A stretch of DNA of 64,000 nucleotides from Diadophis punctatus similis (taxonomy: Eukaryota > Chordata > Lepidosauria > Squamata > Dipsadidae), in NCBI GenBank assembly GCA_023053685.1, contig JALIGW010000004.1:81655297-81719296 (forward strand), written 5' to 3'. A model generated the notes under the pieces. It saw nothing but the letters and a program-made list of their open reading frames with translations. It was not told the origin of the DNA and made no database searches. A program made the translations under genes and the position numbers. Below are positions 1-61,683 of this stretch, in pieces. Each line of letters begins with the position of its first letter. The first letter of the stretch is position 1.

Positions 1-168
1 CTCAATGAGTTTGTGGGTAGACAAATCGCTGGACAATGATAATATTTTGGATCCACAGCCGCCCCAGATGGTACTTCTGTCAGAGGAATAACTTGATTCA
101 CTTAAACACATGAGTGGCGTGCTGTCACTTCCGACGTGAAATGTCCTTAAGGGTGTAGCACTATTGCC
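1..168 (-). CDS. LRRK2: LRRK2 exon 47, cut by the window edge (WD40)
   Basis: Encodes [47 protein letters not shown] and THKLIE to base 1. Acceptor CTCTGCAG. The exon and the remaining WD40 blades continue to the left of the window. Confidence 0.94.
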
Positions 169-9100: not shown

Positions 9101-10845
9101 CATGCAGACATACTGAAAAAGAAAGGGTTTTTCTATTTTTTTTTACCTCAAGCCATCTGCCACATGCAGAGCTATCCTGTGCTGTAAGGTTCTGGTTAGA
9201 CCTGCATTTTCTTGCTGGAGCAACCGATCTAAAGACCCCTTGGAGGCTAATTCCATGACAAGCATCCGGGGACGCACAGCCGCAGCCATCAGGAATACCA
9301 GGCTAGGATGGTGAAGGTGACAGAGCACCGTAAGTTCCTAGACACAGCAAAGTGAAAGTGAAAGGACAGCTGTACTCCTGCCATGTTTTCTCAAAGGTGC
9401 TTCTCCCCGCCCCCCGCCCGCAAAAGGCAACTGGGTTGTTTTTTTCCTTGAGGAGGAAGAAGAAGAAGAAGAAGACGTTTCGCTTCTCATCCAAGAAGCT
9501 TCGTCACTGGCGGGAGGGATGGAAGGATAGATTTTGAAGGGTGTTCACCCCAAAGGGTATGGCTGAATGTCTATGGAGATTCTCAGCCATCCAGGCCATA
9601 GTGGTATCAAAGGCAGTGGTGGGTTGCTACCGGTTTGCCCCGGATCGGGCGAACCGGTAGCGGTGGCGGCGTGAGGCTCCGCCCACCCGCCCAGATGTCT
9701 CTGTGCATGCGCAGAAGCTTCTGTGCATGCGCAGAAGCTTCTGTGCATGCGCAGAAGCGCGAAGGTAATTGAAACCCACTACTGATCAAAATTGCTTTTT
9801 TCAAAAGGCAACTGGACTGTTTCATAGAATAGAATAGAATAGAATAGAATAGAATAGAATAGAATAGAATAGAATAGAATAGAATAGAACAGAACAGAAC
9901 AGAACAGAACAGAACAGAACAGAACAGAACAGAATAAGAAAAAAAATAGGAATAGAGAATAGGAATAGAGAATAGGATAGGATAGGATAGAATAGAATGC
10001 AGAATAGAATAGCAGAATAGACTAGAATAGAATAATAGAATAGAATACTAGAATAGAAAAGAACAGAACAGAACAGAATAGAATGCAGAATAGAATAGGA
10101 CAGAATAGAATTAGAATAGAATAGAATAGAGAAAGAATGGAATGGAATGAAAAGAAGAATAGAATAGAATAGAATAGAATAGAATAGAATAGAATAGAAT
10201 AGAATAGAATAGAATAGAATAGAATAGAATAGAATAGAATAGAATAGAATAGAATAGAATAGAATAGAATAGAATAGGAATAGGAATAGGAATAGAATAA
10301 GAATAAGAATAAGAATAAGAATAAGAATAAGAATAAGAATAAGAATAGAATTCTTTATTGGCCAAGTGTGATTGGACACACAAGGAATTTGTCTTTGGTG
10401 CATATGCTCTCAGTGTACATAAAAGAAAAGATACACTTGTCAAGAATCATGAGGTACAAACACTTAATGATTGTCATAGGGTACAAATAAGCAATCAGGA
10501 AACAATCAATATTAATATAAATCGTAAGGATACAAGCAACAAGTTACAGACATACAGTCCTAAGTGGGAGGAGATGGGTGATGGGAACGATGAGAAGACT
10601 AATAGTAATATGCAGCCATAGTGAATAGTTTGACAATGTTGGGGGAATTATTTGTTTATTTATTTTCAGGAAAAATTATTTTCAGAAGGAGGGAGGAGGA
10701 GGTATAGAGGAGGGAGGATGGGAAGAGGAAGAGGAAGAGGAAGAGGAAGAAGAAGAAGAAGAAGAAGAAGAAGAAGAAGAAGAAGAAGAAGAAGAAGAAG
10801 AAGAAGAAGAAGAAGAAGAAGAAGAAGAAGAAGAAGAAGAAGAAG

Positions 10846-10922
<77 letters not shown>

Positions 10923-13900: not shown

Positions 13901-16900
13901 TGTTATTTTGACGTAAAAATACTATGAAATTGACAATAAGAAGTATATATTTATTAATGTAGACCAGGGGTGGATTTCTTTGAGGGCCGGATCAACATTG
14001 TAGTTGTCCTCTGCGGGCCGGCCGGGGGTGGGGAGACAGGATGGACGGTAGATGGACGGACGCTTCCTGCAGTACCCTGCCAGCCAAAACAGGGCACGGG
14101 TTCGGCCCCGTTTTCAGCCTAGATGGCCTTCTGCAGCACTCTGCCAGCCAAAACAGGGCTGGGGGCGGGGCCCCACAGCGCCCCATTTTCAGAGTGCTGC
14201 AGTAGGTCTTCCAGGCTGAAAACGGGGCACTAGCAGAGGCACTGAGGGTCGGTCCTTTGCTATTTCCAGGCCGGCCTCGCAGGCCAGATCTAAGCATCCC
14301 GTGGGCCGGATCCGGCCCAGGCGCCTTGAGTTTGACACCCCTGCTGTAGACCGAAAAAAGTATTTTGGAATGGATTGCTCAAAATACCGTAGTAAACCTA
14401 CCTTCCTCTGCCTTTTTAAGTAGGTCATCGAGCAATATTTTCTGATGTTCCTCGCCATCCTCAAAGCTGTACAAAGCCCATTTTTTCAACAGTGTTTCTC
14501 CTTCACCACAAATATCTACTTCCAATAAGCCCGGGAACCACTCTTCCATAAGAGAATCGATGTGATCTACAACTTGCCCCAAAATGATGCAACCTTCAGA
14601 AAGTCGGGGAGGGGGGGAAGAAAGAAAGAAAGAAAGGTTAAAAATTGTGGTTTGCTGCCTCTGTAATTAGAAATACACTATGAGGTTTTCTGCTGAGCAA
14701 AACCAACAACATGTTCTGACCCAGATCCCCAAACATGACAAACCCTCTATAGTTGAAGCAATGATTCCTTTATTAGGAGCCACAGAAGCCCCAGCAAAAA
14801 AGTTTCTCTCTCTCTTTTTTTTTAATTGGAAAAGTTTTATGCGTACAAAGTACAAACCTTTTTTTTTGTTATTTCCCCCCCCCCACCCCTCACCCCCCTC
14901 CTCCCCATCCCTTCCCCTCCAACTCCCCGTCCCTGGACTTCCCAGAACATACACAGGGTATAATATAGTTTACACAAATACAAAACTAAAATATGCTAAC
15001 AAATTATTAACTTCCAAATATCATAAACTCTTAACTCCTTATACTGTAAGTTGAACAAAAAGTTAAGTTGAAATATGTCCTTCATCGTCTGTTTTAATCC
15101 ATCCATCTTCTCCTTTATCAAGTATATCATTTAAATAGTCTTTAACATGTTCTGAAATTTTTGCCCTTTGCAATATTGATTTTAAATAAATCTTCCTCTT
15201 GCAGTTTTATGCCACCAATACCTGACAGCAATTGTTAAATTCCAAGCCAACTTAAACCAAATCTAAAAATATTTAACAACTTTCTCTCTCAACGCAGGCT
15301 AACAGGTCTGTCCATCCGGAAGATGAATAGTTGTCTGCCACACCTATTCATCTCCGCCCCCTGCCTTTTATCAGCAGAGCTATGGTGGGGCTTCGCTAGC
15401 AGCGGTGGCTCTTCCGTCCCAAGGACCGGCCCACAGATTTCCACTGCTCTCCTCTCCTCTGCCTTCTGCGCATCCGCACTTCAGGCACTGGACCCAGCTG
15501 TTCCTCCTCTTCCTCATCAGCCACCTCCAGACCTGGGGGCTGTTGACTCTCCATCTGAGGGCTGATGGACTGCCTAGGCTCTGCCTCTGTCTTTCTCTCA
15601 CTGCCAGCTCCATTCCCTCAAAGCTCTCAAGTTGCCTTGATGCTGACCCTGACTCCCACACCTCCTCCTTCTCCTCCTCTGATTCGGCTGCTGGAGGGGC
15701 TGGTGGCCGACAGGTCACCACACAACACCTTAATTTCCCCACCACCCTCCAGAAGGTTGGGACGCATATTTAAGAGCCGAGGTGGCGCAGCGGTTAGAGT
15801 GCAGTACCGCAGGCCACTTTAGCTGACTGTGATCCGCAGGTCAGCGGTTCAAATCTCACCGGCTCAAGGTTGACTCAGCCTTCCATCCTTCCGAGGTAGG
15901 TAAAATGAGGACCCAGATTGTTGGGGGCAATATAAATATATGCATTGCTTACTGGTGTAAACCACTTGGAGAGTGCTTGCACTGTGAGGCGGTATATAAA
16001 TCTCACAAAATAAATAAATAAATAAACAACCTTTTCTGCAAGAAGGGACCGTGATTTTTAGAAAGCTGTTTAGATTGTTTTCCAGAACTGCCGATTCCAC
16101 CAGGGTGTAAGCTTCTGGAGACCAGTTCAGATATATGCCTTGCCTCCAGTACATCTTGTTAGGACGAAGAGCTCGTTCTAAGAAGAAAAAGAAGGATGTT
16201 AAGTCTGTAATGTTTTTCCCCCCTCCATTGTAAAGTCACACATGATCCCTTTCTCTGGCATGATTTTATGCGTACGAAACGTCGCAACGCGAACTGGTGG
16301 CGAAGGTAAGTGAAACCCACCCCTGATTCCAAGCATGAAGTCTTAGAACCTTAACGGTAGATTCCAAACATTAGCTGTCTTGTGTAAGTAACACATGTGT
16401 TCCAGATCCCTAAATGAAGTCCCTTAAAGGAGTTTGCATTTATAAATATTCATAATCTATCTACCATATTTTACTTGCCTCCCGACCTACAGCTGACAGG
16501 CTTGCAAGCCACGTGGTAAAATGAAACTAACTACGGTGGCTGTAATGAGACAAAATGCTGGGAGATAAACTGCTGGCAAGTTACACTGCTGAAATTGCAA
16601 GGAGGTAAGCTACAGCTACTGTAGCCTAGAGGTAGAGCTCTTGCCTCACAGTCAGGAGGTTGTGAGTTCTATCCTAGGTAGAAGCAGAGTCTGTTAATAT
16701 GTTATTTTGTTAAATGTTTGTAGAGTGTTCAAATTATAAGACTTATTTTTAAAGACTGCTTTATTATTGTTCTAGACAACTTAACAAAATGAAGAAGCTT
16801 TTTAAAATAAATTCTTGCTCTGAAGAGGCCCAGTGCTATTGTATCTTCTTTTACATAGCAGAGAATACTTCCAGAAAGCCACATCAATTTTAAAGATCTG

Positions 16901-19900
16901 TAAAAGTATAATCTGAAATGTCCTGTTTTAGTATTAAGTATTAGTATTAAAATAAGGCAGCTGAATTAAACCCTGACTTAGTCATGTTTGGAGTAGATCT
17001 ATTTAAATAATTGGGAGGAGTTAGTGTGATTACATTTAAGAAAACTTTCTGGGATTAATATACTGCCATAATGTACATTTCTCCAATTCTTTGCTATTTC
17101 TATGGGTCAAGCACACATGCACAGAAATACACAGCAAACAGTGTATATCATCTGTACTGTTTGCTGTTTGCTGTTTGGCAAATTGCTGGGAGGCAGAGGC
17201 CTTTTTTCCTTGTTTTCCTCCCCCAAAACTAAGGTGCGTCTTATACTTCGGTGCGTCTTATACTCCGAAAAATACGGTACCTATCTCCTATTGAACACCT
17301 CCAATCCATAGAATTGTCTTTCTGTCGGAAGATCCTTTGCAACGAAACCAGGATAACAATTCCAAAATTTCATCTAACAGCCTGACCTTTATCTGTTTGC
17401 ACCTGAAAGTAGCTTTCATTGAAATTGGACAAATGCAAGCAATATTTTCTGTATCAAATTTGGTTCAGCCTACAGCCTCTTGGACCTCATGCTAAAATTG
17501 TAACGGGAACTAAGCAACCACATGAGTGGCTTTAAAGCCAAATGCCAATAGCTGAATTAAGACGCAAAGTCTGTGGTAACTCAGCTAATTTCCTAATAAC
17601 GAAGGCCCTTTGTACAGATTTAACTAATTTCCTTCCATTCTTGTACCTCTTCCTGAAAGCATGTATGAAGATACTTCAAGCAGTCGATTAATTAGCCGGG
17701 ACCAGAATCCCATAGGAAAATACGGCATCTCATACAATCTTATAATAAGCTCAGAGTTTTCACAGTGAGGCAGTTCTATCACAGGCCGTTGATCCGACAA
17801 GCTTAAAGAGAGAGAGAGAAAAAAAAGTAAGAAAGGGATTTAAAAAGGGAGCTATTTTTCACTTTTTTGAATGTTTCATTTCCCAATTTGGCAATTGGGG
17901 TGACAGTCAAAAGGTAGAAAGTATCTTTTTTGAGTTATAATTATTGGCTGACATTACAACAAGCAAGCATCTCTAAGAAGTCCCTGTGGTTTATTGTGCA
18001 CCTTAGGATCATTGCACAAATGGTAGCAAATGCATAAATTTGCTTCAGTGACCCCTGATACAAATTAAATAATATTTTTACTTACTTACTTACCGTGTTT
18101 CCCCGAAAATAAGACAGGGGCTTATATTTTTTTGACCCCCCAAAAATGCCCCTGGCCTTATTTTCGGGGGTGGCTTATAATTTTCGGGGTGCAGGCGGGG
18201 CGGGGCACGAGACACACCACTTACTGGAGTTTGCCAGCTCCGTGGTCTCTCGGCTAGTCTCTTTAGGAGAAAAAACTTGCAAACAGACAAGCCGAGAGAC
18301 CACGGAGCTGCAAAGCTCCAGTAAGTGGTGCGTCTCTCTTGGCGGGGTGGGGTGGGGCGGGGCAGGCGTCCTACCTGGGACTTGTCCCGGGACCTCCGTC
18401 GCGTTCTTCGGTCTTCTCTCCACAGCAGCCCATTCCAAAAGAACGTCTCACGAGTGCGAGAAGTTTGAACTCGTGAGACGTTCTTTTGGAATGGGCTGCG
18501 AAGAACCCGACCAAGGTAGGAGGGGCGTCTCGCGCTGGGATTTGGCAGGGCGGGAGAGCGTCCCTTCAAAATGCTTCAAAGTCCTTCGAAGCATTTTAAA
18601 GGGATCCGTTTTGCCTGCCATGAAGGAAACCAATGTTCCCCGAAGAAAAGGAGGCAAGCATTGGTTTCCTTCATGGCACGCAACCCAGGTTGCTCTCTTC
18701 TGCGTTCTTCCCTGCATGCCCTAGGACAAGGAGGGGGTTGGCCTTGGTCTTCATCTGAACCCCCTCTCCCTTATTCTACCTCATCCCTGCTCTGCCCAGC
18801 CTGACTTTGCCCTTCCCCAGTTTCCTCCACAGCTAAGGGAGCCACTCTCCCGCTCTCTGTCAGCTGTTCATCTTCCATCTCAGATTCAGACTCCGACGGG
18901 GGCATGACAGCAGGTATTTTGGAATTTTGTTTCTATTCCAACAATCAAGAAGCAAAGAAGGCAAAGAACTACCAACTCGGACAAATAAACTAACAGTAAA
19001 CAATAGTAAGGAATCACCATTCCCAGCAACACTGACAGGGAAATTCAGTGGTATATAAAATGAGAGCAAACCTCACTCCTTTCAAGCACTGATGATGTTA
19101 CCTAGTCGGGTCGTGAAACATCTACAAGAAAACAACCAAGCTCAGAAGCACCAGAGACCTGCAAATTTAATAATTCACATCAGGGGTGATATCCACTTAC
19201 TTTCCGTACCAGTTCGCAAATGTGAGCGCACGTGCTTCGCTCGCAGGCACCCCGTCCACGCATACGCACGGCCTTCTGCGCATACGCCTTGCTCACATGT
19301 GCTTGAAAACGTGCTAAATAGGACGGCATAGCGCCGGAGCGGGTGGGCGGGGGTGGCCCCACCCGCAGGTCGCTACTACCGGTTCAGGCGAACCGGTCCG
19401 AACTGGCTGAAAATACCACCTCTAATTCACATCCTCTCTAATGAAGTCATAATGTATGAGATGTTACTTATTCCCCACATTTTCCCTCCCCCGGCAAATG
19501 CCCATGTAACAATCCATTTTAATTTTTGATTACCTGCTCGGAATAAGCAGTTGATCTTCTCCTAACGGCAAAGCAATCTGGAATTTCTCTAGAAGCTTGA
19601 AGTATTGGCACTTGCAAATCTCAGGGAATTTACTGTTCTTTAGCAGGGAGTTTTCCACATCTGAACGTTTTATGATCCCTTTGGGGTATTTGGTAAAGCC
19701 ATCCACCTTCACCGTCAAGATCTACGGAAGAGAAATCCGTCTCACAAACCTCACTATGATTTGCTTAGTTTAAAAATCACGTCACACGCCAAACTTTTTT
19801 GCTTCGTTCTCAAATAAAAACCAGAAGAATATTCTTTATTGGCCAAGTGTGATTGGACACACAAGGGATTTGTCTCCAGTGCGTTAAGCTCTCAGTGTAC

Positions 19901-22900
19901 ATGCAAGTAACAAAGTGATAAATCATAAAAGTGATAAATCATAAATCATACGATACAATCATAACGTCACATACAAAACTGTTACACACAAAGCAGTATT
20001 ATTCCTCTCCTATCGAGAACTTAAATGAAAAGCTAGGTATTGAAAAAATTCTCAAACCTGTTTTAATATTTTTTTATTAATTTTATACTTTTATACAATA
20101 TCCTTATTATTGTTTTCCCTGTTAACTATTTTGTATATAGGTGACAGGCTAACAACTTGTAAACAGTTTAACAGTTGAGTAGTTTAAAATTCTTTTAGCC
20201 TGTTTTATAAGGGGTAGGAAATTAATGCTGTTGTATTATATTAATCAACGTTCAACTAATGAAGCTGTTATGTGTATATGTGTTAGTCTTTTTTTCTAAG
20301 ACATTTTTTAAAATGTCTTTGTTGTATTTTTTCTTTTTTTCTTTTTTTAAATTAGTCAACATTAGATATTTAATATAGTCAACATTTAATATAGTCCTGT
20401 TAGCATATTTTAATTTTATGTTTATTAAATACTATACCCTGTGCTTTTTCTGGGAAGTTGGGGTGGGTGGGTGGGTGAGTGGGGGGAGGGTAAGGGGGGT
20501 GGGGAGGGGTCTGGGGGGAAGGGGGGAGAAAAGAGAAAAATGTTTGTACTTTGTACTAATAAAACCTTTTGAATAAATTTAAAAAAACATTTAATATAGT
20601 CAACATTTAATATAGTCAACATTAGAATAGAATAGAATAGAATAGAATAGAATAGAATAGAATAGAATAGAATAGAATAGAATAGAATAGAATAGAATAG
20701 AATAGAATAGAATAACAGAGTTGGAAGGGACCTTGGAGATCTTCTAGTCCAACCCCCTCCTCGATTTATAATCACAATTCAGCCAAAAATTTCCATTGTT
20801 AAGTGAGACAGTTGTTAAGTGAGTTTTACCCCATTTTACGACCTTTCTGCCTCCGTTGTTAAGTGAATCACTGCAGCTGACAAGTTAGTAACCCGGTTGT
20901 TAAGTGAATCTGGCTTCCTCATTGACTTTGCTTGTCACAAGGTCGCAAAAGGGGATCACGTGACCCCCGGAACACTGCAACTGTCATAAATATGAGTCAG
21001 TTGCCAAGCGTCTGAATTGCGACCACGTAACCCTGGGGATGCTGCAACGAAGTGTGAAAATTATAGTAATAAGTCACTTTTTCAGCGCCGCTGTCACTTT
21101 GAACAGTCCCTAAATGAACCGTTGTAAGTCATGGACTGTCTCTATTTTGGTGTTTCGCATTTTAACTTCCCTTGAATAAACTAAATATCGTATAGGAAAA
21201 ATTCTCAGACCTGGAAGATAAGAGAGAAATAACCACCCAAGAGGCAAAAAAAGGGACAATCCAGAAAACCTGGTTTGGAACCGCACTTGAGACTGACCTG
21301 GGCTATGATTTTGCACAGCCATTTGGGATCAACAAAATAGAAATTTCTGAGCTGAAGTGCTGGATCCTGAAAGTGGAGCAGGACACCTAAATAAAATAAA
21401 AAATAGTCCGCTTAGCATACATCAGTGTGTACGGAACATTTTAACAATAGTAGTATTGTTTATTGCAGGTAGTCCTCGACTTACGACCACGATTGAGCCC
21501 AAAATTTCTGCTGCGAAGTGAGACGTTTGTTAAGCCCCATTTTACGACCTTTCTTCCCTCAGTTGTTAAGTGAATCACTGCAGTCATTAGTCACACGGTT
21601 GTTACGTGAATCTGGCTTCCCCACTGACGTTGCTTGTCAGAAGGTCGCAAAAGGGGAATAGAATAGAATAGAATAGAATAGAATAGAATAGAATAGAATA
21701 GAATAGAATAGAATAGAATAGAATAGAATAGAATAGAATAGGAAATGGAATGGAATGGAATGGAATGGAATGGAATGGAATAGAAATAGAATAGAAATAG
21801 AAATAGAAATAGAAATAGAAATAATAGAAATAGAAATAGAAATAGAAATAGAAATAGAAATAGAAATAGAAATAGAAATAGAATAATTAGAATTAGAATT
21901 AGAATGAATAGAATAGAATAGAACAGAATAGAACAACAGAATTGGAAGGGACCTTGTAGGTCATCTAGTCCAACCCCCCGCCCAATCAGGAGACCCTACA
22001 CCAGTGATGGAGAACCTTTTTTTGCTTGGGTGCCAAAAGGGCGCGCGAGTGTGTGTGCCCACACCCATAATGCAATGCCCTGCCCCACACGCATGCACGC
22101 ACACCACCCCCCGCGCTGCCCGCCCGCACATATGCGCAGGCCTCACTAAAGCCTCCAGACATCTGGTAGGCCCGTTGGGCCATTTTTCGCTCTCCCCAGG
22201 CTTCAGGATGCAAAAATGGCCTCAAATATTGGAAGACTGCTATCGTGTCTCCCCTGGTCCTTCTCTTCACTAGACTAGCCATGCCCGGTTCCTGCAACCG
22301 TTCTTCATATGTTTTAGCCTCCAGTCCCCTAATCATCTTTGTTGCTCTTCTCTGCACTCTTTCTAGAGTCTCAACATCTTTTTTATAGTGTGGTGACCAA
22401 AACTGGATGCACACTATTGGGTTTGTTGGCCTCCTTGAGTAACTTATCAAGTAATAAAAGCAGGATAACAATAGAATAAATAAGCCAACTGCCCAACTTA
22501 GCGCAACTTTTTTGTTAAACGAAAAAAAGGGATGGCGGACCCACTGACTATCATGGTCCAAAAACATTTTTACCCGATTCGTTCAGAAAATGCACAGCGT
22601 GAGGAAGCTCGTTTTCATCCAATTGCAGCTGCTTTTCTTGCACCAATTCATAAAGCTGACTCTGGCCAATCACAGGGAATTCAGCCGGCAACGTTTTGCG
22701 TATTTCTAGAATGCTCTTCTCAAGTTCTAAGTAGCTGTCTGGAATTAACTGGCCAATCACGGGCTGGTCTCTGATCTGCAGGAAAAATAAATGAAAATAA
22801 ATAAATGTTGTTCAACTATTTCGATGAATACCTTAGGGATGAATTGCACTTTCCTACAGTCAATAATTTCTCCTGAAATATGGATTGCAGCTTGGACCAG

Positions 22901-25900
22901 TCTTGAACTCAGAAGAACAGGGTTGGAAGGGACCTTGGAGGTCTTCTAGTCTAGTCTAGCTCAAGGTTGACTCAGCTTTCCGTCTGTCCAAGGTCGGTAA
23001 AATGAGGACCCAGATTGTTGGGGAAAATATGCTGACTCTGTAAACCGCTTACAGAGGGCTGTAAACCATTGTGAAGCGGTATATAAGTCTAAGTGCTGTT
23101 GCTTTCCTTCCTTTCCTTTCCTTTCCTTTCCTTTCCTTTCCTTTCCTTTCCTTTCCTTTCCTTTCCTTTCCTTTCCTTTCCTTCCTCCCTTCCTCCTTCC
23201 ATCCTTCCTTCCCTTCATCTCTTATTCCCTTTCTCATTCTCCTTCCTGGTGGCACAGTGGTTAGAATGCAGTATTGCAGGCTGACTTTGCCCACTGCCAG
23301 CAGTTCGATCCTGACCGGCTCAAGGTTGACTCAGCCTTCCGCCCTTCCGAGGTTGGTAAAATGAGGACCCAGATTGTTGAGGGCAATAGGCTGATTCTGG
23401 AAACCGCTTAGAGAGGGCTGTAAAGTGGTATATAAGTTCTATTGCTATTTATACTTGTGTATTAAAGCAAAATGGCTTACTTTAAAATCCAGACATTCTT
23501 TGATGATGATTTGTCGAAGTTTAGTCATGGACTCAGACTCTTCTGTAGCATTCACAAAGTGATAGTCGTGGATTTTAGGAAACCCCTTCTGATTCATCAG
23601 CTCCTTGGTGATTTTACTGATACAAGCTCTCCGCTGCTTCTCGTTAGCGATGTCTAAATGAGTCCCAATGAGGATCACAGGGGAGAAGGATGCTCGGGTC
23701 TATAAAACAGGAGTTGCAAAGTTCTCCATTAAGGCTCTTCTCCAATAACCCTCCTTTTATGTGCAGCTGGTTTTATTCCACTATGTTATCATCAATCCTA
23801 GCCACCTTGCAACCAGGATGTCACCTGAGATTTGTCAAGCACTTTAAAATTCTCATTAACCACCAGGCCATCTATAAGCAACACAGGGAGTAAAAAATTA
23901 CTTAAACCAGGGGTGTCAAACTCAAGGCCCACGGGCTGGATCTGGCCCGCGGGCTGCTTAGGGCCTCCCTGGGAATAGCAGTGATTCCCTGAACAACTGT
24001 GGAGGCCGTCACGGCCGAAAATGGATGATGAGCTGGACAAACCCACCCTGGCCACGCCGCCCCCTCCTCCGAGGTCAAACACAACTCTGACGCGGCCCGC
24101 AATGAAATCGAGTTTGACGCCCCTGACTTAAATTCTTTGACCGTTAGTTGACTACATACTTGTGCACAGATAGCAATAATAAACTTTTCCCGGCTTTGAA
24201 CTCGATGAATGCTCCTGGTTATTTGCGCCTGACAAATTTTCTATCATATCAGGTTTTTTTTTTTTAAAGATCAGTAAGTACCGTATTTTTCGGAGTATAA
24301 GACGCACCTTTTTACCCCCAAAAAGAGGGTGAAAACTTGGGTGCGTCTTATACACCGAATGCAGCCCCACCCACCCACCCACCCACCCCCACCCTTTGGC
24401 CTCTGTCTTCCAGCAATTTACCTGTTTGCAGCAAAGAGGGAAGAGCCTGTAAAGCCAAGCAAGTCACTAGCAGCTTCCCGACCTACAGCTGATTAGGTTT
24501 GCCATGTGGGAAAATGAAAGTGAAACTAACTGCAAAGAGGCAAATAGCTGGGAGAGACACGCAGATTTTTATTTTTTGCTGAACTGGATGGAAGGGGGTA
24601 AGTGAATAACTATAAATGTCTGTAGAATGTTCAAATTATTAGACTTATTTTTTAAAGACTGCTTTATTATTGTTCTAGAGCCAGGGGTCTCCACCCTTGG
24701 CAACTTTAAGACTTGTGGACTTCAACTCCCAGAATTCAACAGCCAGCTTTGTTAGCTTTGCTGGCTGTGGAATTCTGGGAGTTGAAGTCCACAAGTCTTA
24801 AAGTTGCCAAGGTTGGAGATCCCTGTAAATCTAGACAACTTAACAAAATAAAGCTTTTTAAAATAAATGCTTGCTCTGAAGAGGCCCAGTGCTATTGTAT
24901 CTTCTTTTAAATAATAGAGAATAATGTATACTTCCTGAAATTTTAATTAATTTTAACAGCTCTGTACAGGTATAGTATGAAATGTAACAGTGTCCTGTTT
25001 AGTATTAGAGTTTAGTTACCTTGGAGTAGATCTATTTAAATAATTGGGAGCAGTTAGTGTGACTACATTTAAGAAAACTTTCTGGCATAATGTACATTTC
25101 TCCAATTTTTTGCTATTTCTATGGGTCAGGCACACATGCACAGAAATACACAGCAAACAGTATATATCATCTGTGCTATTTGCTGTTTGCTGTTTGGCAA
25201 ATTGCTTGGAGGCAGAGGCCTTTTTCCCTTGTTTTCCTCCCCCAAAACTAAGGTGCATCTTATACTTCGGTGCGTCTTATACTCCGAAAAATACGGTTTG
25301 TTTGTTTGTTTGTTTGTTTGTTTGTTTGTTTGTTTATTTATTTATTTATTTGACAACAAGTGGAAGGAAACAGGACACATGAAAAAAAATGGCACAAATA
25401 AATGGATATAAAGAAGCAAAACATAGCCATAAACACATAAAACGAGTACATACAAATGGGTACAGTAGGACAGGGACGGTAGGCACGTTGGTGCACTTAT
25501 GCACGCCCCCTTAGGGACCTCTTAAGAAACGTGTAAGGTCCACGGTAGACAGTTTAAGGTAAAAGGTATGGGGGTTAGAGAAACAATGTTACCTTGATAT
25601 TAAACAGCCATGGTTTCATGGCATCCACTTCTGATTCTCCTTTGCTCAGGTCATACACCGCGAGGTATAGAGCTCGCTGAGTCATAAAGTGGGGATGAGC
25701 GCTGTAGAATTCTTCCTGACCTGCAGAAGAGCAAGTACAGCAGTAATTGGCAGGTGGCATGTATGCCCACGTACGCTCTCCATGACCTCCAATTCTCACC
25801 CAAAGGGGGAAGAGAATTCAAACAGAGTTTAAATCGTTTCAGGCTGGCGTCAAAAACAAGAACAAAATGTTACAGATCGTGAAGAAACAGTGGGTTTTCC

Positions 25901-28900
25901 AATTTGCTCTCTCACACACCCAACACCAACGATATATGAGGAACATGGTTAAAACGGAAAGTTTACCTCAAACTTTACCGTGTTTCCCTGAAAATAAGAC
26001 ATCCCCGCATAATAAGCCCTCCCCCCAAAATAAACCCTCCTCCGAAAATAAACCCTCCCCCCAAAATATTTAACCGCATGCGCAGCCGGCCCCCACCATT
26101 TCCTCTGGTTAGGGTTAGGGAGACAGAGATGGAAATCAGGTAAGATGGCAAGAGGAGCCCCGTCTTGTTCCACGCACCCCAAAATAATAAGACCTCCCCG
26201 AAAATAAGGCCAAGCGCTTATTTCGGGGTTCAAAAAATATAAGACAAGGTCTTATTTTCGGGGAAACACGATAGACGTTTAGAAAAACAAAACTGTGTTC
26301 CTGTAGGGGGACAGGGGTGTCAAACTGGCGGCCTGTGGGCCGGATGCATCACGTGCAGGCCACGCCCACTCCAGCTCCGTGAAGGGAGAAAATGTTGCGA
26401 TACGTCACTTGACGGCAATGTGACGCTACGAGTTTGTCACCAGTGCTATCAGAGAAGAGCAAGCAGTGTCTGGGGGCGGAGTCAAGAGAGGAATCAGTCT
26501 GGAATCTTTGTGTCGTCACAAGCGGTCTAAGTCCAACCTCTCTTGAAGTCCACTGACTCTGAATTAGCACCAACTTAATGTTGACCGTTAGTTGACTAGA
26601 TTCTCTGTTAGTTGACTAGCTAAGCAATAAATCAGTTTAATTGCAACTTATTATGTGATTCTGATTCTTAGAGCCCGAGCGTTCCTCTATTCTCATGCCG
26701 TTATCTGCTAGATCTAAAGAAAGGCTCCGGGTTTTATTCCCCTCTAGTAATTCACACGCAATATTAATTTCTACAATTGCAAAGTACAAATAGTTCTCAA
26801 CTTACAACTGTAATCGATCGAGGTCATTAAGCAGGCTGTCACGTGACTGACCCAATTTTATGACTTTTTGGGAGCTGTCTTTCCTTCCTTCCTTCCTTCC
26901 TCCCTCCCTCCCTCCCTCCCTCCCTCCCTCCTTCCTTCCTCTTATTCCCTTTCTCATTCTCCTTCCTGGTGGCGCAGTGGTTAGAATACAGTATTGCAGG
27001 CTGACTCTGCCCACAGCCAGCAGTTCGATCCTGACAAGCTCAAGGTTGACTCAGCCTTCCATCCTTCCGAGGTCAGCAAAATGAGGACCCAGATTGTTTT
27101 TGGGGGGGGCAACATGCCGACTCTGTAAACCGCTCAGAGAGGGCTGTGAAGCGGTACCAAGCGGTATATAAGTCTAAGTACGATCGCTCTTGCTATTCTC
27201 CTCAATTCTGAACAGCGTTTTTTGTGTTTGTTTTGCGGGCACGAGAAAATACCTGCAAAGTCCCAGACATTTAAAACTGTATCTTTCTTGATTTTGCCTC
27301 TTCGGGGGATCTTCCAGTCATTCACATCAATTCCAATAGTCGGCTTCTGAGGTCCCAAAGCTGGCCTCTTGCATTTCATTAGCTGTTGTAACAAGGTTGT
27401 TTTACCGCTGCCGGCGTTTCCAACGACCATGAGCTTCATTCTATGGTAGGGCACAGCTTTCTTTAAACGCTGTTGGAGGAACCTGGCCAAAAGAGAAGGA
27501 AAAGGCTGTTTTAATTACAGAACTGCTTTTTTAAAAAAATAATTTTTAATTTTATTTATTTATTTATTTTGTCAACACGTGTACAAGATAACAGGTATGA
27601 TATAAACATAAACAAAAGCAAAGTAGGTATAGGTAAAAATTAGACAATAGGACAGAAGGACAGGGACGGTAGGCACGATGGTGCACTTATGCACGCCCCC
27701 TTACAGACCTCTTAGGAATGGGGTGAGGTCGACTGTAGACAGTCTAAGGTTAAAGTTTTTGGGGTTTGGGGAAGAAACCACAGAGTCAGGCAGTGCATTC
27801 CAGGCACTGATCACTCTGTTGCTGAAGTCGTATTTTCTGCAGTGGGGGTTTCGAGCGGTTTACATTGAGTTTGAATCTATTGTGTGCTCTTGTATTGTTG
27901 CGGTTGTCTCTAATCCAGTGGTTCCCAACCTTTTTGTGATCGAGTACCACTTGGAGGTCCCGTACAGTCGCCGCGTACCACCTGGTTCCAGAGAAACTAA
28001 ATTCACTTTATTTCCATAATTGTACCATTCTTTTGGCCCCGCGCATCCAGCAACTGGATTCTCAGGCCGCTGGGACCAGGTGGGTGGCGTGTGGCAACAG
28101 TTGCAAATCGTTGCCAGATTATCTTGTGTTAGGCAGTAAACATTTTTGTGAAGTAAAAAATAACTAACTAAAAATCGTTCATGACCCCGAAAGTGTTCGC
28201 GTACCACCTGGAAGGCCCTTACGTACCACTAGTGGTACACGTACCACAGGTTGGGAACCACTGCTCTAATCTGTGTCTTCTCTTGGGAAAAATACTTCAG
28301 GAAAGAAACCATCCAAACAGACCTCTTCAACTGCTAAGACAATTGATAACTCGATGGAAAAAGGGATACCGTATCAGTGAGTTGACAAGGAGAGAGGGGG
28401 AAAAAAGGAAACGTATAATGAAAAAAATGGAGAAAGAACTATTTCAAGGCTCTGTCATTTCCTGATTTACACTGTGAAGCCTTCTTCCAAGACGTGACCA
28501 TTTATTAGAACATTTATTAGAACGGTTGCAGGAATTGAGTATGTCTAGTTTAATGAAAAGAAGGACTGGGGAGACATGATAGCAGTGTCGCAATATCTCA
28601 GGGGTTGCCACAAAGAAGAGGGAGTCAAACTATTCTCCAAAGCACCTGAGGGTAGAACAAGAAGCAATGGGTGGAAACTAATCAAGGAGAGAAGCAACTT
28701 AGAACTAAGGAAAAATTTCCTGACGGTGAGAACAATTGATCAGTGGAATAACTTGCCTCCAGAAGTTGTGAATGCTCCAACACTGGAAGTTTTAAAGACG
28801 ATATTGGATAACCATTTGTCTGAAGTGGTGTAGGGTTTCTTGCCAAACAGGGGGTTGGACTAGAAGACCTCTAAGGTCCCTTCCAACTCTGTTATTCTGT

Positions 28901-31900
28901 TATTAGCAGTGTTTTTCCAGTGAAAACAGCTACCCAAAACCATTGAAAGAATGGTCAGAACAAACTCACCGGATAATATCCCTTGCTTTGTCTCCCACGT
29001 GTTTAAAATCTAAATTAAGACGTAATCCTTCCAAAGGAAGATCCCATATATTCAACAATTTCCCCATTTCATCTGGAAAACAACGGATCGCTGGATTGTA
29101 ACTAACATCAAAAGATGTCAAGTTTTCCAGAAATCCAATGTCAGGAGGGATCTAGAGACAAAAGAAGAAGATTTAAATATATTTTTTGAGAATAGAACTG
29201 CTAATCTATCAGTTATCAATATCAGTTCAATGCCAAACTAATCTAATTTTTAATTAGACATTTAACTAGACAATTAGCTAGGTAGCTAGTTAATTCTTGG
29301 CCAATCGTTACCCTTTTTTCGAACAGCGTTCAGGTTAATGTTACAGGTAGTCCTCGACTTAGAACCGTTCATTTAGTGACCATTCAAAAGTTACAACGGC
29401 ACTGAAAAAAGTGACTTATGACCGTTTCCCCACACTTATGACCATTGCAACGTCCCCCGTGGTCACGTGATCAGATTTCCGACGCTTGGCAACTGACTCG
29501 TATTTATGACGGCCGCAGCGTCCTGGGGGGGTGTCACGTGATCCCCTTTTGTGACCTCCTGACATGGAAAGTCAACGGGGAAGTCGGATTCACTTAACAA
29601 CCGTGCGACTAACTCAACAGCCGCAGCGATTGACTTAACCGATTGTGGCGAGAAAGGCTGTCAATCGGGACAAAACTCACCGTTCTGCTTAGCAATGGAA
29701 ATTTTAAGCTCAGTTGAGGTCGTAAGTCAAGGATTGCCTGTGACTTACTCCCTATTGTCACATTCTCCAAACCCAATATTGCTGTTTTTTTTTTAATTCT
29801 TAAAACATTTTTCTCTGCTTCTGTGGGAGGAAAGTTTATTCTGGAGAACCATGCCTTCAACATCAAATTATTCAGATCCATTCTCTATCTCCAGCGAATC
29901 TGCGCCCTTCGTATATATTCTTCTGAAGATTTATTTGCTTGAGGTTTAGCAATACAGTTTGCTAGACTTTCCTCTCTGGCGTCTTTCATTCTAAGTCTAG
30001 CACTTAGACTTATATATCGCTTCACAGTGCTTTATATCCCTCTCTAAGCGGTTTATAGAGTCAGCCTATTGCCCCCAACAATTTGGGTCCTCATTTGACC
30101 AACCTCGGAAGGATGGGACGCTGAGTCAACCTTGAGCCAGTCAGGATCGAACTGCTGGCAGTGGACAGAGTCAGCCTGCAATACTGCACCCTAACCACTG
30201 CGCCACCAGGAAGGAGAATGAGAAAGGGAATAAGAGATGAAGGGAAGGAAGGAAGGAAGGAAGGAAGGAAGGAAGGAAGGAAGGAAGGAAGGAAGGAAGG
30301 AAGGAAGGAAGGAAGGAAGATAGCTCTTTGACTTATCTACTGTTTTACAGTACTTTCCAACTCTCTATAAGCAGCTTAGAGAGTCAGCCTATTGCCCCCA
30401 ACAATCTGGGTCCTCATTTTACCGACCTGGGAAGGACGGAAGGCTGAGTCAACCTTGAACCTGGTGAGATTCGAACTGCAAAATTGCAGGCAGCCGGCAG
30501 TCAGCAGTAGCAGCCTGCAGTACTGCACTCTAACCACTGCGCCACCGTGGCTCATAAAGTAAGCTTTGCATTAAGACAGATATGAAAAACCAATCTTTTT
30601 TTCTCAGCAGTTATTTGGACAGAAGCCATTCTGCTTCTCTGTCTTAAAATAACTCAGAGCTGATTACTTTGAGTTTATTTACAGCCCAGTCCAATACAAT
30701 CAGGGCTGAAGGAACGTAATTTTTCAAGAAAAAGCAATTGCTTCAAACATTCCCGAAAAGTATTTTGAAAAAAGCACAGTGATAAAGTCAGAACAACTAC
30801 CGTATTTTTCGGACTATAAGACGCACCTTTTTCCTCCCTAAAAGAGGCTGAAAATTTGGGTGCATCTTATACTCCGAATGTAGCTTTTTCCGAAGCTTTT
30901 TTTTCCAGCCCTAACGAGGTGCTAACAATCTTTCCGGCTTCCTATTCCCTCCGAAGAAGATTTTTTCCAGCCCTAAGTCTTTGCAGGCTTGTTTTCATTC
31001 CTACTCCCTCTGAAAAAGCGATGCTTTTCAGCCCTAACGATCTTCCTGGCTTGCTGCATTTATTTTTATTCCTACTCCCTCCGAAGCAGGTTTCCTGCCC
31101 TAAATCTTTGCAGGCTTGCTTTCATTCCTACTCCCTCCGAATAAGGTTTTTTTCAGCCCTAACCAGGGGATAAAATAATGTGCTGAAGCTGACCAGACTA
31201 AGGACGCTAGCCAGATGAATACCTGGTAGGTAGATTTCCCCCCCTATTTTCTTCCCCCAAAACTAAGGTGCGTCTTATACTCCGGTGCATCTTATACTCC
31301 GAAAAATACAGTACTATCTTGTGATGTGTGTTACCTCTCTTAATCTGTTGTTAGACAGGTGTAGCTTTTCCAGCCGAGACCAAGAAGAAGCTCTGTCATT
31401 CAAGTCCAGAATGCTTATTTGATTGTGGTTAAATATCAATTCTCTTAAATTGGACGATTTCCAAAATGCAGGCCCAGGTAGCGTCGCAATTCTATTGCTG
31501 CTTAAATCCACCGATCGCAAACTGGCAAAGAGAGACAGGAATACAATTGCTATTAAATGAAAAGTTAGACTTTGTAACTCGCGCCAATCATTTCCAAACA
31601 CGAGGGCTATGCAGAATATATACATACCGTATTTTTCGGAGTATAAGACGCACCTTTTTCCTCCCTAAAAGTGGCTGAAAATTTGGGTGCGTCTTATACT
31701 TCGAATGTAGCTTTTTTTTCCAGCCCTAACTAGGTGCTAACAGATCTTCCCAGCTCTTACCTTGCAGGCTTTTTCATTGTTACTCTCTCAGAAGAATATT
31801 TTTCCAGCCCTAAGTCTTTGCAGGGTTTTTTTCATTGCTCTACTTGCTCCAAATAAGTTTTTTTCTAGCCCTAACTAGGTGCTAATATCTTCCCAGCTCT

Positions 31901-32257
31901 TACTGGCTTGCAGGCTCTTTTCATTGTTACTCTCTCAGAAGAAGGTTTTTCCAGCCCTAAGTCTTTGCAGGGTTTTTTCATTGCTCTACTTGCTCTGAAT
32001 AAGTTTTTTTCTAGCCCTAACTAGGTGCTAACGATCTTCCCAGCTCTTACTGGCTTGCATGCTCTTTCATTGTTACTCTCTCAGAAGAAGGTTTTTTAAA
32101 GTCCTAACCAGGGGATAAAATAATGTGCTGAAGCTGACCAGACTAAGGACACTAGCCAGATGAATACCTGGTAGGCAGATTGTTTTCCCCTATTTTCCTC
32201 CCCAAAAACTAAGGTGCGTCTTATACTCCGGTGTGTCTTATACTCCGAAAAATACGG

Positions 32258-32307
<50 letters not shown>

Positions 32308-35300
32308 CTGTACCCGGCCATGCGTTGCTGTGGCTCAGTGCGAAGCGGAGCGTGAGAGCGAATCACCTGGTCGATGCGCCTTCCTAGAAACTCCGAGCAT
32401 CACCACGTCTAAGAACCCCAGTTTTAAGAATCAACACCGCTCAATTCTCGGAATTTGAGCTGGAGGCTTTGCTCCATTCCCTCCCCCCTCCCTCGCCGGT
32501 CCGTAAAGTCAGAAAGGTTGGAGACCCCTGTAAGAGATATTTGGGATTACTGGAAGTCCCCACGAATCAGTACAAGAACAGGAGATGCAAATTTTAATGT
32601 ATGTGTCCTAGTAACTTACTGTGGTAGAAGAAGAATTGCCTCTGGAACAGTGAAAAAAGCATTCTGAGATAGTTTCAATGTAGTTATGCTACAAGGCAAG
32701 TTCTTTACGGTATCTAAAACACAGAGAAATAAACGTGTTATTAATCGGTTTGGAAAATCATTTAGTCCTAAGACAACTAAACAATGCAGTTATCAAACAG
32801 ATATCCTATACAGGTAGTCCTCAACAATTTGTTTAGTTAATTGTCAATTAATCAATTAATTGTTTAATATTTGATTATTCGTGTAATAACCGCAGCCAGA
32901 ATTGTATTTGCACAAAACTGGAAAAGGAGGAGAATATGATAAGGAAAATATTAGAATGTGCAGAAATGAATAGGTTAACACTGGCAATTAAAGAGAAAGA
33001 ACAAACTGGTTATTATGCGATATGGGAAACATTTTATCGATGCTTAGAGGACAAATATAAAAATTAGAAATAAAAGTAGATGAGTAAAATACAGAAAATA
33101 GGTAATAGAGTTAAGTAAACTAAGAAGAGGATGTAAAGTATCAGATATTTAATGTATTGGTATTAAGCTAAGAATAGATTAAATAATGAATATGATTGTA
33201 AATTTTAACTATTATTGCACAAACATTTGTGCCCAGACGACACACTGTTTAATGGAAGATGGATTATTTGTACTAAAATAAAATAATTATTTTTAAAAAA
33301 CAATTTGTTTAGTGACCATTTGGAGTTCCAAGAGCTGAGGTGGCTCAGTGGTTAGAGGCAGGTACTGCAGGCCACTTTAACTGACACTGATCCGCAGGTC
33401 AGCGGTTCAAATCTCACCGGCTCAAGGTTGACTCAGCCTTCCATCCTTCCGAGGTAGGTAAAATGAGTACCCAGATTGTTGGGGGCAATGTAAATATACA
33501 TTGCTTACTGGTGTAAACCGCTTAGAGTGTGCTTGCACTGTGAGGCGGTATATAAATCTCACAAATAAATAAATAAATAAATGGCACTGGAAAAAGTGAC
33601 TCATGACTGTTTTTCACACAACCCTTGCAGCATCCCCAGGGCCACATGATCAAAATTCAGACACTGGGCAACTAACTTGTATTTATGACGGTTGAAGTAT
33701 CAAAGGGTCAAGTGATTCCCCTTTTGCGATCTTCTGATGAGCAAAGTCAACGGGGAAGCCAAATTCAATTAATGACTGTATTACTAACAGCCATGGCAAA
33801 GAAAGGTTGTAAAATGGGACAAAGCTTATTTATTGACTCTATTGCTTAACAATCAAAATTTTGGGAAGTATTGAGACTCTGGAAAGAGCGCAAGAGAAAA
33901 AGCAACGAAGATGATTAGGGGACTGGAGACTAAAACATATGAAGAATGGTTGCAAGAACTGGGCCAGTGGTGGGTTGCTCCCGGTTCGGACCGGTTCGCC
34001 TGAACCAGTGGCGGACATTTGTCCCCGCTCGCCAAACCGGCAGCGACGGCCGCTCCTCCGGTTGCCGCTCCTTGAAAGCGGCTGGCAAAGAACCATCTGT
34101 GCATGCGCAAAGGCTTCTGTGCATGCGCAGGGGGACATTTTCCTGATGTGACGTAAGCCCACGCGCGCATGCGAAGCACTTCTGACGTGATGCTAACTGG
34201 TAGGGAAGGTAAGTGGAACCCACCCCTGAATTGGGCATGCCTAGTTTAATGAAAAGAAGGACCAGGGGTGACATGATAGCAGTCTTCCAATATCTCAGGG
34301 GCTGCCACAAAGAAGAGGGAGTCAAACTATTCTCCAAAGCACCTGAAGGCAGGACAAGAAGCAAATACGATGGAAACTAATCAAGGAGAGAAGCAACCTA
34401 GAACTAAGGAGAAATTTCCTGACAGAGAGAACAATTACCGTATTTTTTGGAGTATAAGATGCACCGGAGTATAAGACGCACCTTAGTTTTGGGGGAGGAA
34501 AATAGGGGGGGAAATCTACCTACCAGGTATTCATCTGGCTAGCGTCCTTAGTCTGGTCAGCTTCAGCACATTATTTTATCCCCTGGTTAGGGCTGAAAAA
34601 AATCTTCTTCGGAGGGAGTAGCAATGAAAAAGCCTGCAAGCCGGGAAGATCCTTAGCTCCTCGTTAGGGCTGGAAAAAACATTCTTCGGAGCAAGTAGCA
34701 ATGAAAAAAAGCCTGCAAAGACTTAGGGCTGGAAAAAAACGTATTTGGAGGGAGTAGCAATGAAAACAAGCCAGGAAGAGCCGGGAAGATCGTTAGCACC
34801 TCGTTAGGGCTGGGGGAAAAAGCTTCAAAAAAAGCTACATTCGGAGTATAAGACGCACCCAAATTTTCAGCCTCTTTTAGGGGGAGGAAAGGTGCGTCTT
34901 ATACTCCGAAAAATATCGTAATCAGTGGAACAACTTGCCTCCAGCAGTTGTGGGTGCTCCATCACTAGAAGCTTTTAAGAAGAGATTGGACAACCACTTG
35001 TCTATAATGGTATAGAGTTTCCTGCTTGAGCGGAGGGTTGGACTAGAAGACCTCCAAGGTCCCTTCCAACTCTCTTATTCTATTATTAATATGATATCAG
35101 CAACGTGTTGAGGTCTGCCTGTTTTTAAATGTAATTTTATTCGCTTCCATTCCTAACACCGCTCCGTCTAGTACTACATACTCACAAATTCTATTTACTG
35201 CTGCATTGAGTATTTCCAATTTCAAACAGTCCTGCAGAAATTCGGTATCCAGGTACGGTATGTCGTTCTTGCTAATGTTTAAACTTTTCAGTTCTTTGAA

Positions 35301-38300
35301 ACTGGTTCGCGCGACTAACGTTGAAAGTTTGTTACTAGGAGAAAGAAAGAAAAAAACAACAACCCAGCATTGCGGCAAAGGTCACACAAAACAGCTGCCT
35401 TGCTACAGGCCCAGTGTTGATTGTTCAATTTATTTATTTTATTTATTAAAGCAACTGATATGGTGACCCAACTCACGCATAGGTGGCTCCAGGAGGCTTA
35501 CGACACTTAAAACCCCACTCCGTAAAATCCCACCAAAATATAAATACCATCCTGCAGATCCTTTCTCCTATACAAGTAGTCCTCGATTGACAACAATTCA
35601 TTTAGTGGCCATCCAAAGTTACGACGGCACTGAAAAAAGTGACTTATGACTGTTTTTTTTTACACTTACGAATGTAGCAGTATTTCCACGGTCATGTGAT
35701 CAAAATTCAGGCGCTTGGCCATCTGAATATGAGCCGTTGACTCATATTTATGACGGTGGCAGCGTCCCGGAGTCACATGATCCTGTTCTGCGACATTCTG
35801 ACCGCCAAGTCAATGGGGAAACCGGATTCACTTAACAACCGTGTTCCTGACTTAACAATAGCAGTGATTCCCTGAACAACCGTGGCAAGAAAGGTCGTTA
35901 AATGGGGCAAAACTCACTTAATCAATGTCTCACTTAAGAACAGAAATTTTGGGCTCCATTGCGGTCGTAAGTCGAGGCATACCCGTACTCAAGTCAACCT
36001 CAGTTTCTGATGACAACATGAACCCAACCATGTGGTTTTCCTGGCAGTGTTACCGACATGGTTACTCACAGCCTTCTTGGAGGATGGTTGTGAAAGTTGG
36101 GCCTTCATTCCATATTTTCCTCATCCTGCCTTTCCCTACTCATATCAACGCTGGAGAGAAATATATAATAAAAACCCAGTTTACGTTCTCACCCTTCCAA
36201 AATGAGATGTTCCAGCTTGATGAGAATATTGCCAAGATATCTAGGGATGCCCAACAGTTGGTTGTATGACAAATTGAGTAATTTTAGAGTTGGACAGGTG
36301 GTCGTTGGACTGAAACATAAGGTAGGCCCGATTTCGTTTCGCGAAACGTCGAGGTGAACGATCTGAGGCATTTCCAAGAGATACTGAGGGAAAGACTTCA
36401 AACGGTTGCTGTGGAGATCCAGATAAGTCAAACATTTCATGGTCTAAAAGAAAAAAAGTTATGACAAATAAGCTTATTTAATAAATTATGGTACGGTAAA
36501 TACACGGATGAGGTGATATAAAAAGTAGCTTATTTAAGGGATCACTTAAAAGAGATATAGCTATCAGGGAAAATGCAAAAAATCGTAACGATTCAAGGAA
36601 CTCCTATAATAAACATAAACAGATTCCCCAGTTTGTATCTTAACTTAGTTTTACTTTAACCTAGTGAGATTTGAATAAAACACAAAACATAAAATCCTAG
36701 GGGCTAGAAGGGACCTCGGAGGTCTTCTAGTCCAACCCCGTGCTCAAGGCGTTATACCACCCCAGTCAAATAGTTGTCCAGTCAATTTTTGAAAACATCC
36801 AATGATTGAGCACCTAAAGGTCCCCAAACTCTTCAATTCATTGAATCCTTCATGAAATTTCACTTGCTCATCGACACTCGCCCCAAAACCATTTTCTATT
36901 TCTTCCTAGTCCAGGTTCTACAAATTACCCATTATGTCAGCTAAAAACTAATCATTTGGAATTCAATACACCTTAGTTTTTATTTAATTTTATATCATTT
37001 TGATTATCTACTGTTAAGGGGAGAGAAGCCATTGCAATTTATATAATAAAATGTAACTAATAAATCAGGAGCAAAAAAAAGTTATTTGCCATGATTTGAA
37101 CGTAGAGAAAGCCCTTAAAATGTTGGAAAACTATACTACACAAATAAGCCTGACTCTTTAACGGGACACAGACTTTATTACAAATATTACTAACATATTT
37201 TTTTTCTTTTTACAACTCTGTAATCCCTTCATTCGGGGTGGAGTTGGGGCAAATGAATGGAGCTGAGCATTTACTGGCCGGATGCCCTTCCTGGTGCCCA
37301 GGGGTCGGTTCTAATTTTTTTTAACTACCGGTTCTGTTGGCATGGCTTATTTTGTGGGTGTGGCTTGATGGTCATGTGACAGTGGGCATGGCTTCATGGT
37401 CTTCCCGTGCATTTCCCCCAGCCGCCTGACCTGTGAGGGAAGCACACAGATTGCGGCACCGGAGCTCTTCCCGTGCGTTTCCCCCAGCCGGCCTGGCCTG
37501 CGAGGGAAGCACACAGGAGATCGCGGCACTGGAGCTCTTCCTGTCGTTTCCCCCAGCCAGCGTGGCCTGAGAGGGAAGCACACGGGAGATCGCGGCACCG
37601 CAGCTCTTCCCGTGCGTTTCCCCCAGCCGGCCTGGCCTGTGAGGGAAGCACACGGAAGATTGCGGCACCGCAGCTCTTCCCGTGCGTTTCCCCCAGCCGG
37701 CCTGGCCTGTGAGGGAAGCACAGGGAAGATCGCGGCACCGCAGCTCTTCCCGTGCGTTTTCCCCAGCCGGCCTGGCCTGTGAGGGAAGCACACGGAAGAT
37801 CGTAGCTGCAGTTTACTCGTGAGCAACATTGGCCGGGAGAAGCAGGGAGAAAGGCCAATGGTGCTCACGAGTAAACTGAGGCTCCTAAGGGGGGGTCGGG
37901 CCTCCCCGCTCACAACATCTTCACCTGGGGTGCCGCGATCTCCCGCGCACATCTGACAAAAATAGAAAATAAAATAATAATTTATATAATAATAACAATA
38001 ATAAAACCATAACAACAAAAGAACAACAATAATTATTATTTTAAAAATAATAAATAAAAAACAAAAAAAACAAGAAGAAAAAAAATTCAAAGAGCAGACT
38101 CAAATGACCACTAGATATTGTTTTGCCATTAATTTTCTTTTTCTATAAAAATGACATATCTAGAATTGTTTTTGTTCTATAAAGATATTTTGCAGCTTTA
38201 ATTGTACCTAATGAAATACGAACTTTTAGTAATAGTTGATCCCATTCTAGAAGAAACCAACACAAACTTTCGTTAAGATTATTTTCCCCTTGTCCTCTCA

Positions 38301-53668: not shown

Positions 53669-53701
<33 letters not shown>

Positions 53702-61526: not shown

Positions 61527-61683
61527 CTTGGGAGACAAACGATTGTTTATTAAACTTCAAAAACACAACCATCTCGTTTAATTTTCGCAGCACAAGACGA
61601 GCAAAGTAAATACACAAGCAACTTCACTCACAAATGACTCAATTTGTTTTCGAACCAAGATACTCGTCAACGGCAAAAAAAAA

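Follow-up and report, generated by a model that had tools for sequence, protein, structure and literature searches.

A snake LRRK2 with alanine in the P-loop and the ancestral glutamine in switch II of its ROC domain

The minus strand of a 64,000-nucleotide stretch of the genome of the snake Diadophis punctatus similis (contig JALIGW010000004.1 of assembly GCA_023053685.1, positions 81,655,297 to 81,719,296; hereafter the window) carries LRRK2, and the ROC GTPase domain of this gene has Ala at the position of human T1343, in the P-loop, and Gln at the position of human R1398, in switch II. We infer, with rather more confidence than doubt, that this is an ordinary LRRK2 that keeps the ancestral switch-II Gln and would be unable to use phosphorylation of the P-loop as feedback on its GTPase. 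The residues are read directly from the DNA, and the function is extrapolated from the human protein. The two residues do not have the same history: Gln is an old Roco state, and Ala is best read as a derived change of colubroid snakes.

Two ROC residues with separate histories

The codons of the P-loop read GGA AAC GCC GGC AGC GGT AAA ACA, which gives GNAGSGKT. The switch-II motif DFAGQEEFY spans an intron (27252-25721): one exon ends with GAC TTT GCA G, followed by GT, and the next starts with GT CAG GAA GAA TTC TAC. When aligned to human LRRK2, the Ala falls on T1343 and the Gln on R1398, which correspond to Gly12 and Gln61 of Ras. An interpretation made previously from the letters alone (the sequence-only reading) had reported these residues and coordinates, with the same Ras and LRRK2 numbering, and all of these are confirmed. 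It had also called the domain Ras-like at both positions. This holds for switch II, where CAG encodes the Gln that follows DxxG, but not for the P-loop, where Ras has Gly (PMC2851569, PMC10317166) and the snake has Ala. The window thus has neither a phosphorylatable residue at 1343 nor the therian-type Arg at 1398. The same Ala occurs in five further snake records, from Thamnophis, two vipers, and two elapids.

Three protein searches—the best 120 of 1016 matches, 53 of 53 with candidates limited to 7996, and the best 120 of 787 (65 of them new)—provided 238 database proteins. We tabulated the 232 with an alignable ROC, i.e. all except P0131, P0134, P0141, P0144, P0168, and P0174. Many rows are representatives of 90% clusters. 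We assigned rows to groups such as colubroid or prokaryote-like from the listed names and general taxonomy, and many invertebrate and prokaryote-like rows are nameless. Boa, crocodilian, monotreme, and marsupial are single rows, and shark, lungfish, coelacanth, and salamander are not represented. For a tally meant as one row per species, the 189 tetrapod rows (human and window included) were reduced to 142 by dropping isoforms, repeat records, a bird-like row (P0050), and a short frog row (P0122), the last two both Thr/Gln at 1343/1398; the Macaca mulatta row P0104 (Thr/Arg) was also dropped, without good reason. Parsimony on a FastTree tree built without columns 1343 and 1398 counts six changes at 1343 and four at 1398.

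Every sauropsid row that covers site 1398 has Gln. Among database rows, these are four of the five colubroids, the boa (1/1), 12/12 lizards, 10/10 turtles, the crocodilian (1/1), and 65/65 birds. The fifth colubroid, Pseudonaja (P0008), lacks the site and seems to run into sequence that is intron in the window. Gln is also found in the echidna (1/1), in 23 of 24 frog rows (the other has Asn), in 14 of 15 invertebrate or unnamed rows, and in 25/25 prokaryote-like rows. Among vertebrate rows, Arg is confined to the marsupial (1/1) and to placentals (59/67, the remainder being six His, all marmoset, and two Cys, in baleen whales); the non-vertebrate row P0145 also has it. The species tally at 1343/1398 gives the same pattern: Ala in 6/6 colubroids, with Gln in the five that cover the site; Thr/Gln in the boa, 11/12 lizards (Varanus has Ser/Gln), 8/8 turtles, the crocodilian (1/1), 52/52 birds, and the echidna (1/1); Gln at 1398 in 21/22 frogs; and Thr/Arg in the marsupial (1/1) and 35/38 placentals, where two Thr/Cys and one Thr/His also occur. 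The five teleosts (P0124, P0125, P0126, P0129, and P0138) all have Gly at 1398 (SGGEE), which, judged by sequence, is a third switch-II type within LRRK2.

These distributions indicate that Gln1398 is the ancestral Roco state and that Arg replaced it in marsupials and placentals. In LRRK2, the most probable time of origin of Arg1398 is after monotremes had branched off and before marsupials and placentals parted, a dating that depends on a single row each for echidna and marsupial. A preprint of 2026 that compared 20 Roco proteins from UniProt, of which 10 have Gln, describes R1398 as a gamma-phosphate sensor unique to LRRK2 and terms the Q-to-R change lineage-specific; its accessible text contains none of the words mammal, vertebrate, and ortholog (PMC13345514). 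Our survey narrows this claim, since in the rows compared Arg1398 is not an LRRK2-wide residue. We regard this comparative result, that Arg1398 looks like a marsupial and placental trait, as the most valuable outcome of the analysis. Because Arg1398 is missing from every bird, reptile, frog, monotreme, and teleost row that covers the site, a mechanism general to LRRK2 could not depend on it. Human ROC chemistry should not be assumed for the LRRK2 of chicken, frog, or fish. Among the titles and abstracts listed by our searches of the open-licence literature, none mentions a restriction of Arg1398 to marsupials and placentals or snake LRRK2 at these sites, which is weak evidence of novelty.

Two groups of placental rows depart from Arg. 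All six records of Callithrix jacchus (P0221, P0224, P0225, P0228, P0229, and P0230) read DFAGHEEFY, and thus have the His of the human protective R1398H variant. These records possibly come from one assembly, or reflect a polymorphism, and they call for caution before the marmoset is used as an LRRK2 model. The whales Balaenoptera ricei (P0217) and Eschrichtius robustus (P0223) have Cys.

At position 1343, Thr is kept in 131 of the 142 tetrapod rows, so that the site is constrained in most of the lineages seen. Ala occupies it in all six colubroids (window included), Thr in the boa and in 11 of the 12 lizards, and Ser in Varanus, so that among sauropsid rows Ala1343 is limited to colubroid snakes. 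It is best read as a derived colubroid change with parallels elsewhere, and not as a state common to all non-mammals. The sequence-only reading had taken the natural Ala/Gln pair as a feature of one lineage, had allowed that it may be ancestral, and had asked for an alignment of ROC across vertebrates. That alignment separates the two residues: an ancestral origin is borne out for Gln, which non-mammals share widely, and fails for Ala, which they do not all share. Hence, we rejected a single lineage-specific event, since Gln extends far beyond snakes, and also the notion that everything is ancestral, since Ala is found in neither the boa nor the lizards seen. In the elapids Notechis and Pseudonaja (P0002 and P0008), the following Gly (G1344, the Ras Gly13 position) has also changed to Ser, giving GNASSGKT. 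A parrot row (P0041) has SSGKT as well, with Thr retained.

We also considered whether Arg1398 guards Thr1343 against loss. This idea finds no support, even though Thr is lost in none of the 39 marsupial and placental rows, because their subtree makes up only ~19% of the tree length and, given six changes, would be left untouched ~28% of the time (a hand calculation from tree lengths).

Consequences for regulation of the GTPase

In human LRRK2, T1343 is an autophosphorylation site in a negative feedback from kinase to GTPase (PMC11658767). The sequence-only reading bypassed this role in favour of the analogy with Ras Gly12, and it matters more. In the full-length protein, the GTPase has a Michaelis constant (KM) of 554 uM and a turnover number (kcat) of 0.36 per min, which in the presence of ATP become 1036 uM and 0.14 per min (PMC11658767). 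The T1343A mutant has a KM of 265 and a kcat of 0.10, which with ATP become 328 and 0.10; its monomer-dimer balance does not shift with ATP, and in cells it gives about twice the Rab10 phosphorylation, like G2019S (PMC11658767). In the structure of the RCKW fragment, phosphorylated T1343 contacts the backbone of R1398, and in simulations the side chain of R1398 lies on the phosphate of this residue (PMC10317166). Both partners of the contact are missing from the snake, and most sauropsid rows have the Thr and not the Arg.

The snake protein shares with human T1343A the Ala and the impossibility of phosphorylation at that residue (PMC11658767), but the human background has Arg1398 and S1292, where the snake has Gln and Leu. 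With bacterial Roco proteins, e.g. that of Chlorobium tepidum (Q519; PMC4781896, PMC13345514), it shares the Gln after DxxG. At the P-loop position, the 25 prokaryote-like rows usually have Gly (19 rows, with four Pro and two gaps), whereas the snake has Ala.

In the reading we favour, switch II keeps the ancestral Roco Gln, and Ala occupies the P-loop position where most tetrapods have Thr. The snake ROC would still bind GTP and hydrolyse it slowly, using the canonical switch-II Gln. Its kinase would be unable to phosphorylate the P-loop at 1343, so that the GTPase would not be slowed in that way. Negative feedback of the human T1343 type would be absent, or taken over by other sites, of which T1348, T1349, S1403, and T1410 remain. 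One would then expect a KM and a dimer fraction that do not respond to ATP, and a steady level of Rab phosphorylation modestly above that of a Thr-bearing relative. Colubroid snakes offer a natural test of what LRRK2 does when the T1343 feedback site is missing.

S1292, which we take to be a human autophosphorylation site, is Leu in the window (codon 29055-29053, its position counted from an ungapped tblastn match), Thamnophis, Notechis, Pseudonaja, and the boa; it is Ser in the two vipers and in 12/12 lizards, and frogs mostly have Thr. The non-viper colubroids seen here therefore have an LRRK2 without two known human autophosphorylation sites, which would be a natural T1343A state. This forms part of a broader reading that we advance tentatively and hold to be quite possible, if short of an even chance: Arg1398 and the phosphorylatable P-loop Thr would be recent and lineage-bound, an older Roco switch working with Gln would carry feedback and gamma-phosphate sensing of the human type as optional additions, and the P-loop Thr would have been dispensed with in colubroids and, independently, in some frogs. 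At the least, two regulatory features of human LRRK2, the T1343 phosphosite and Arg1398, are not common to all animals.

Objections and rival explanations

Several observations weigh against a loss of feedback in the snake. Outside amniotes, other residues occur at 1343: 4 of the 22 frog species rows lack the Thr (Ascaphus and Discoglossus have Ala, Gastrophryne, with Asn at 1398, has Val, and Pelobates has Ser), none of the five teleosts has it (two Ser, two Ala, both icefish, and one Pro), and among the 15 invertebrate or unnamed rows there are six with Gly, four with Ala, three with Gln, and one each with Ile and Glu. Because the site is not strictly kept, the P-loop feedback may itself be a tetrapod trait or a narrower one. 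In vitro, the kinase activity of human T1343A is comparable to that of the wild type (PMC11658767). T1343G has no significant effect in full-length human LRRK2 and slightly lowers both activities in RCKW (PMC10317166), and the accounts of R1398H disagree (PMC4781896, PMC10317166, PMC9472821, PMC13345514). These results make the size of the effect, and even its direction, uncertain. Finally, colubroid LRRK2 is fast-evolving throughout. The mean root-to-tip distance from the amniote node is 0.409 for the six colubroid rows, against 0.231 for the 12 lizards and 0.244 for the boa. Positions kept in at least 95% of the other rows and changed in all colubroids that cover them number 32, against 1 in turtles, 3 in birds, 2 in lizards, and 17 in placentals, on a rough yardstick, since the groups are of unequal size and age. 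We found no clustering of the colubroid changes in ROC (4/109 versus 28/792 in the rest, p = 1.0).

The rapid pace of the whole protein and the lack of enrichment in ROC make neutral or near-neutral drift a serious rival. Here, Ala would be one of many substitutions, phosphorylation of the P-loop would be minor or redundant, and regulation would be little changed. The absence of a significant T1343G effect in full-length human LRRK2 suits this explanation, and the second P-loop change of elapids, G1344S, may mean that constraint has been relaxed. It accounts less well for the retention of Thr across most tetrapods and for the human T1343A mutant, where a single substitution removes the effect of ATP on KM and doubles phosphorylated Rab10 in cells (PMC11658767). 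We consider drift possible, with the chances somewhat against it, and drift in a relaxed lineage is a good rival to any adaptive account of the colubroid changes.

In the view of the sequence-only reading, Ala and Gln together would give a Ras-like ROC whose GTPase cycle differs, hydrolysis then being presumably faster; we think this unlikely. The Gln does match Gln61 of Ras, and engineered human mutants at both sites exist, as the sequence-only reading had said: a GTPase-COR-kinase fragment with T1343G/R1398Q hydrolyses GTP faster (PMC2851569). This fragment resembles the snake in its Gln at 1398 and its non-Thr residue at 1343, but the latter is Gly, as in Ras, and the snake has Ala. R1398Q alone makes no significant change in full-length human LRRK2 (Biosa 2013, cited in PMC4781896). 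T1343A itself has a kcat of only 0.10 per min, against 0.36 without the mutation, and a mutant in which KM and kcat are both lower and KM is not raised by ATP is unlike a fast Ras-like cycle (PMC11658767). Moreover, the Gln would be unable to mark a special snake cycle because it is usual in the non-therian Roco rows seen. An assembly or splicing artefact, or a pseudogene, is very improbable: our splice model omits one poor exon join, misses two small exons, and had its GT-AG borders imposed, but it is stop-free over 1776 residues, 2445 of the 2533 residues of Thamnophis LRRK2 are matched at the locus, and the same Ala recurs in the five other snake records.

The LRRK2 gene of the window

The gene in the window is the normal LRRK2 of a colubroid snake and not a chance resemblance. 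A human LRRK2 probe gives collinear tblastn matches over residues ~282-2337, and the ARM/ANK/LRR-ROC-COR-kinase-WD40 order is found on a single strand with both human and Thamnophis probes; the domain names follow human numbering. With the Thamnophis protein as probe, tblastn on the window and its two flanks, of 20 kb and 30 kb, leaves only the first 86 residues and two others without a match, and the gene looks intact. The splice model has 32 exons, whose GT-AG borders and joins free of stops were imposed on it and are therefore not independent evidence. Its identity is highest with the LRRK2 of Thamnophis elegans (92.3%), the nearest of those compared, and lower with Notechis (89.4%), Crotalus (88.5%), and the boa Candoia (82.8%). 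The 193-residue ROC matches PDB chains of human LRRK2 at residues 1321-1513 with E ~1e-97 and LRRK1 with ~1e-18, and the best named proteins in the database search are snake LRRK2. A Roc-family search of the animal's own genome record (1.78 Gb, 419 contigs) found the P-loop exon once (C313:81682547-81682732) among 100 GTPase-domain matches. The P-loop and switch-II exons (Table 1) are those that we take to be human exons 29 and 30, following the numbering of the sequence-only reading.

Table 1. Features of LRRK2 in the window
Feature	Position	Strand	Remark
LRRK2 gene body	1..61608	-	Human residues ~282 to 2337; extends past the window at both ends
Exon before the P-loop exon (last LRR, linker)	28970..29151	-	Leu at human S1292 and Asn at K1293; tblastn match and splice model
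Exon with end of LRR-ROC linker, P-loop, switch I, and start of switch II	27253..27482	-	Sequence, splice model, and PDB match
Ala at human T1343 (Ras Gly12 position)	27413..27415	-	Codon GCC; aligned to human
Exon with switch II and onward	25593..25720	-	Sequence and splice model
Gln at human R1398 (Ras Gln61 position)	25716..25718	-	Codon CAG; aligned to human
Next ROC exon	23481..23699	-	First codon Thr at human A1440; Arg1441 kept; Phe at S1444; Ile at T1503
COR domain, 6 exons	14402..22775	-	Ser at 1671 and Tyr at 1699 kept
Kinase domain, 6 exons	5449..12638	-	K1906, D1994, DYG 2017-2019 kept; Ser at A2021

Compared with human LRRK2 (PDB 7lht, 6vno, and others), the snake protein is alike in its ROC match, its collinearity, its kinase residues (K1906, D1994, and DYG, aligned to human), and R1441, N1437, Y1699, and S1671. 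The P-loop GxxxxGKT is present with K1347 and T1348, and S910, S935, T1348, T1349, S1403, T1410, T1452, T1491, R1441, Y1699, and the kinase motif residues are retained. It differs in having Ala at T1343, Gln at R1398, Leu at S1292, Thr at A1440, Phe at S1444, Ile at T1503, Ala at T1404, and Cys at T1357; the window also has Asn at human K1293. Two of the colubroid changes are clear-cut, in counts that include repeat records: A1440, next to the R1441 disease hotspot (window codon 23699-23697), is Thr in 6/6 colubroids and Ala in 183/183 other rows, and Y1645 is Cys in 6/6 colubroids and Tyr in 183/183. Further sites vary in the rows shown. T1404 is Ala in snakes and Anolis; T1503 is Ile in snakes and chicken, with Thr kept by Anolis, echidna, and Xenopus; at S1444 the window, Thamnophis, and Crotalus have Phe, the boa has Leu, and Notechis has Ser; and E1616 is Asp in snakes and Xenopus.

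By eye, closely similar dispersed repeats flank the two ROC exons (~27700-27560 and 25515-25400, minus strand). Open reading frame fragments at 22582-21986 (minus) and 28549-28833 (plus) resemble remnants of the reverse transcriptase of long interspersed nuclear elements.

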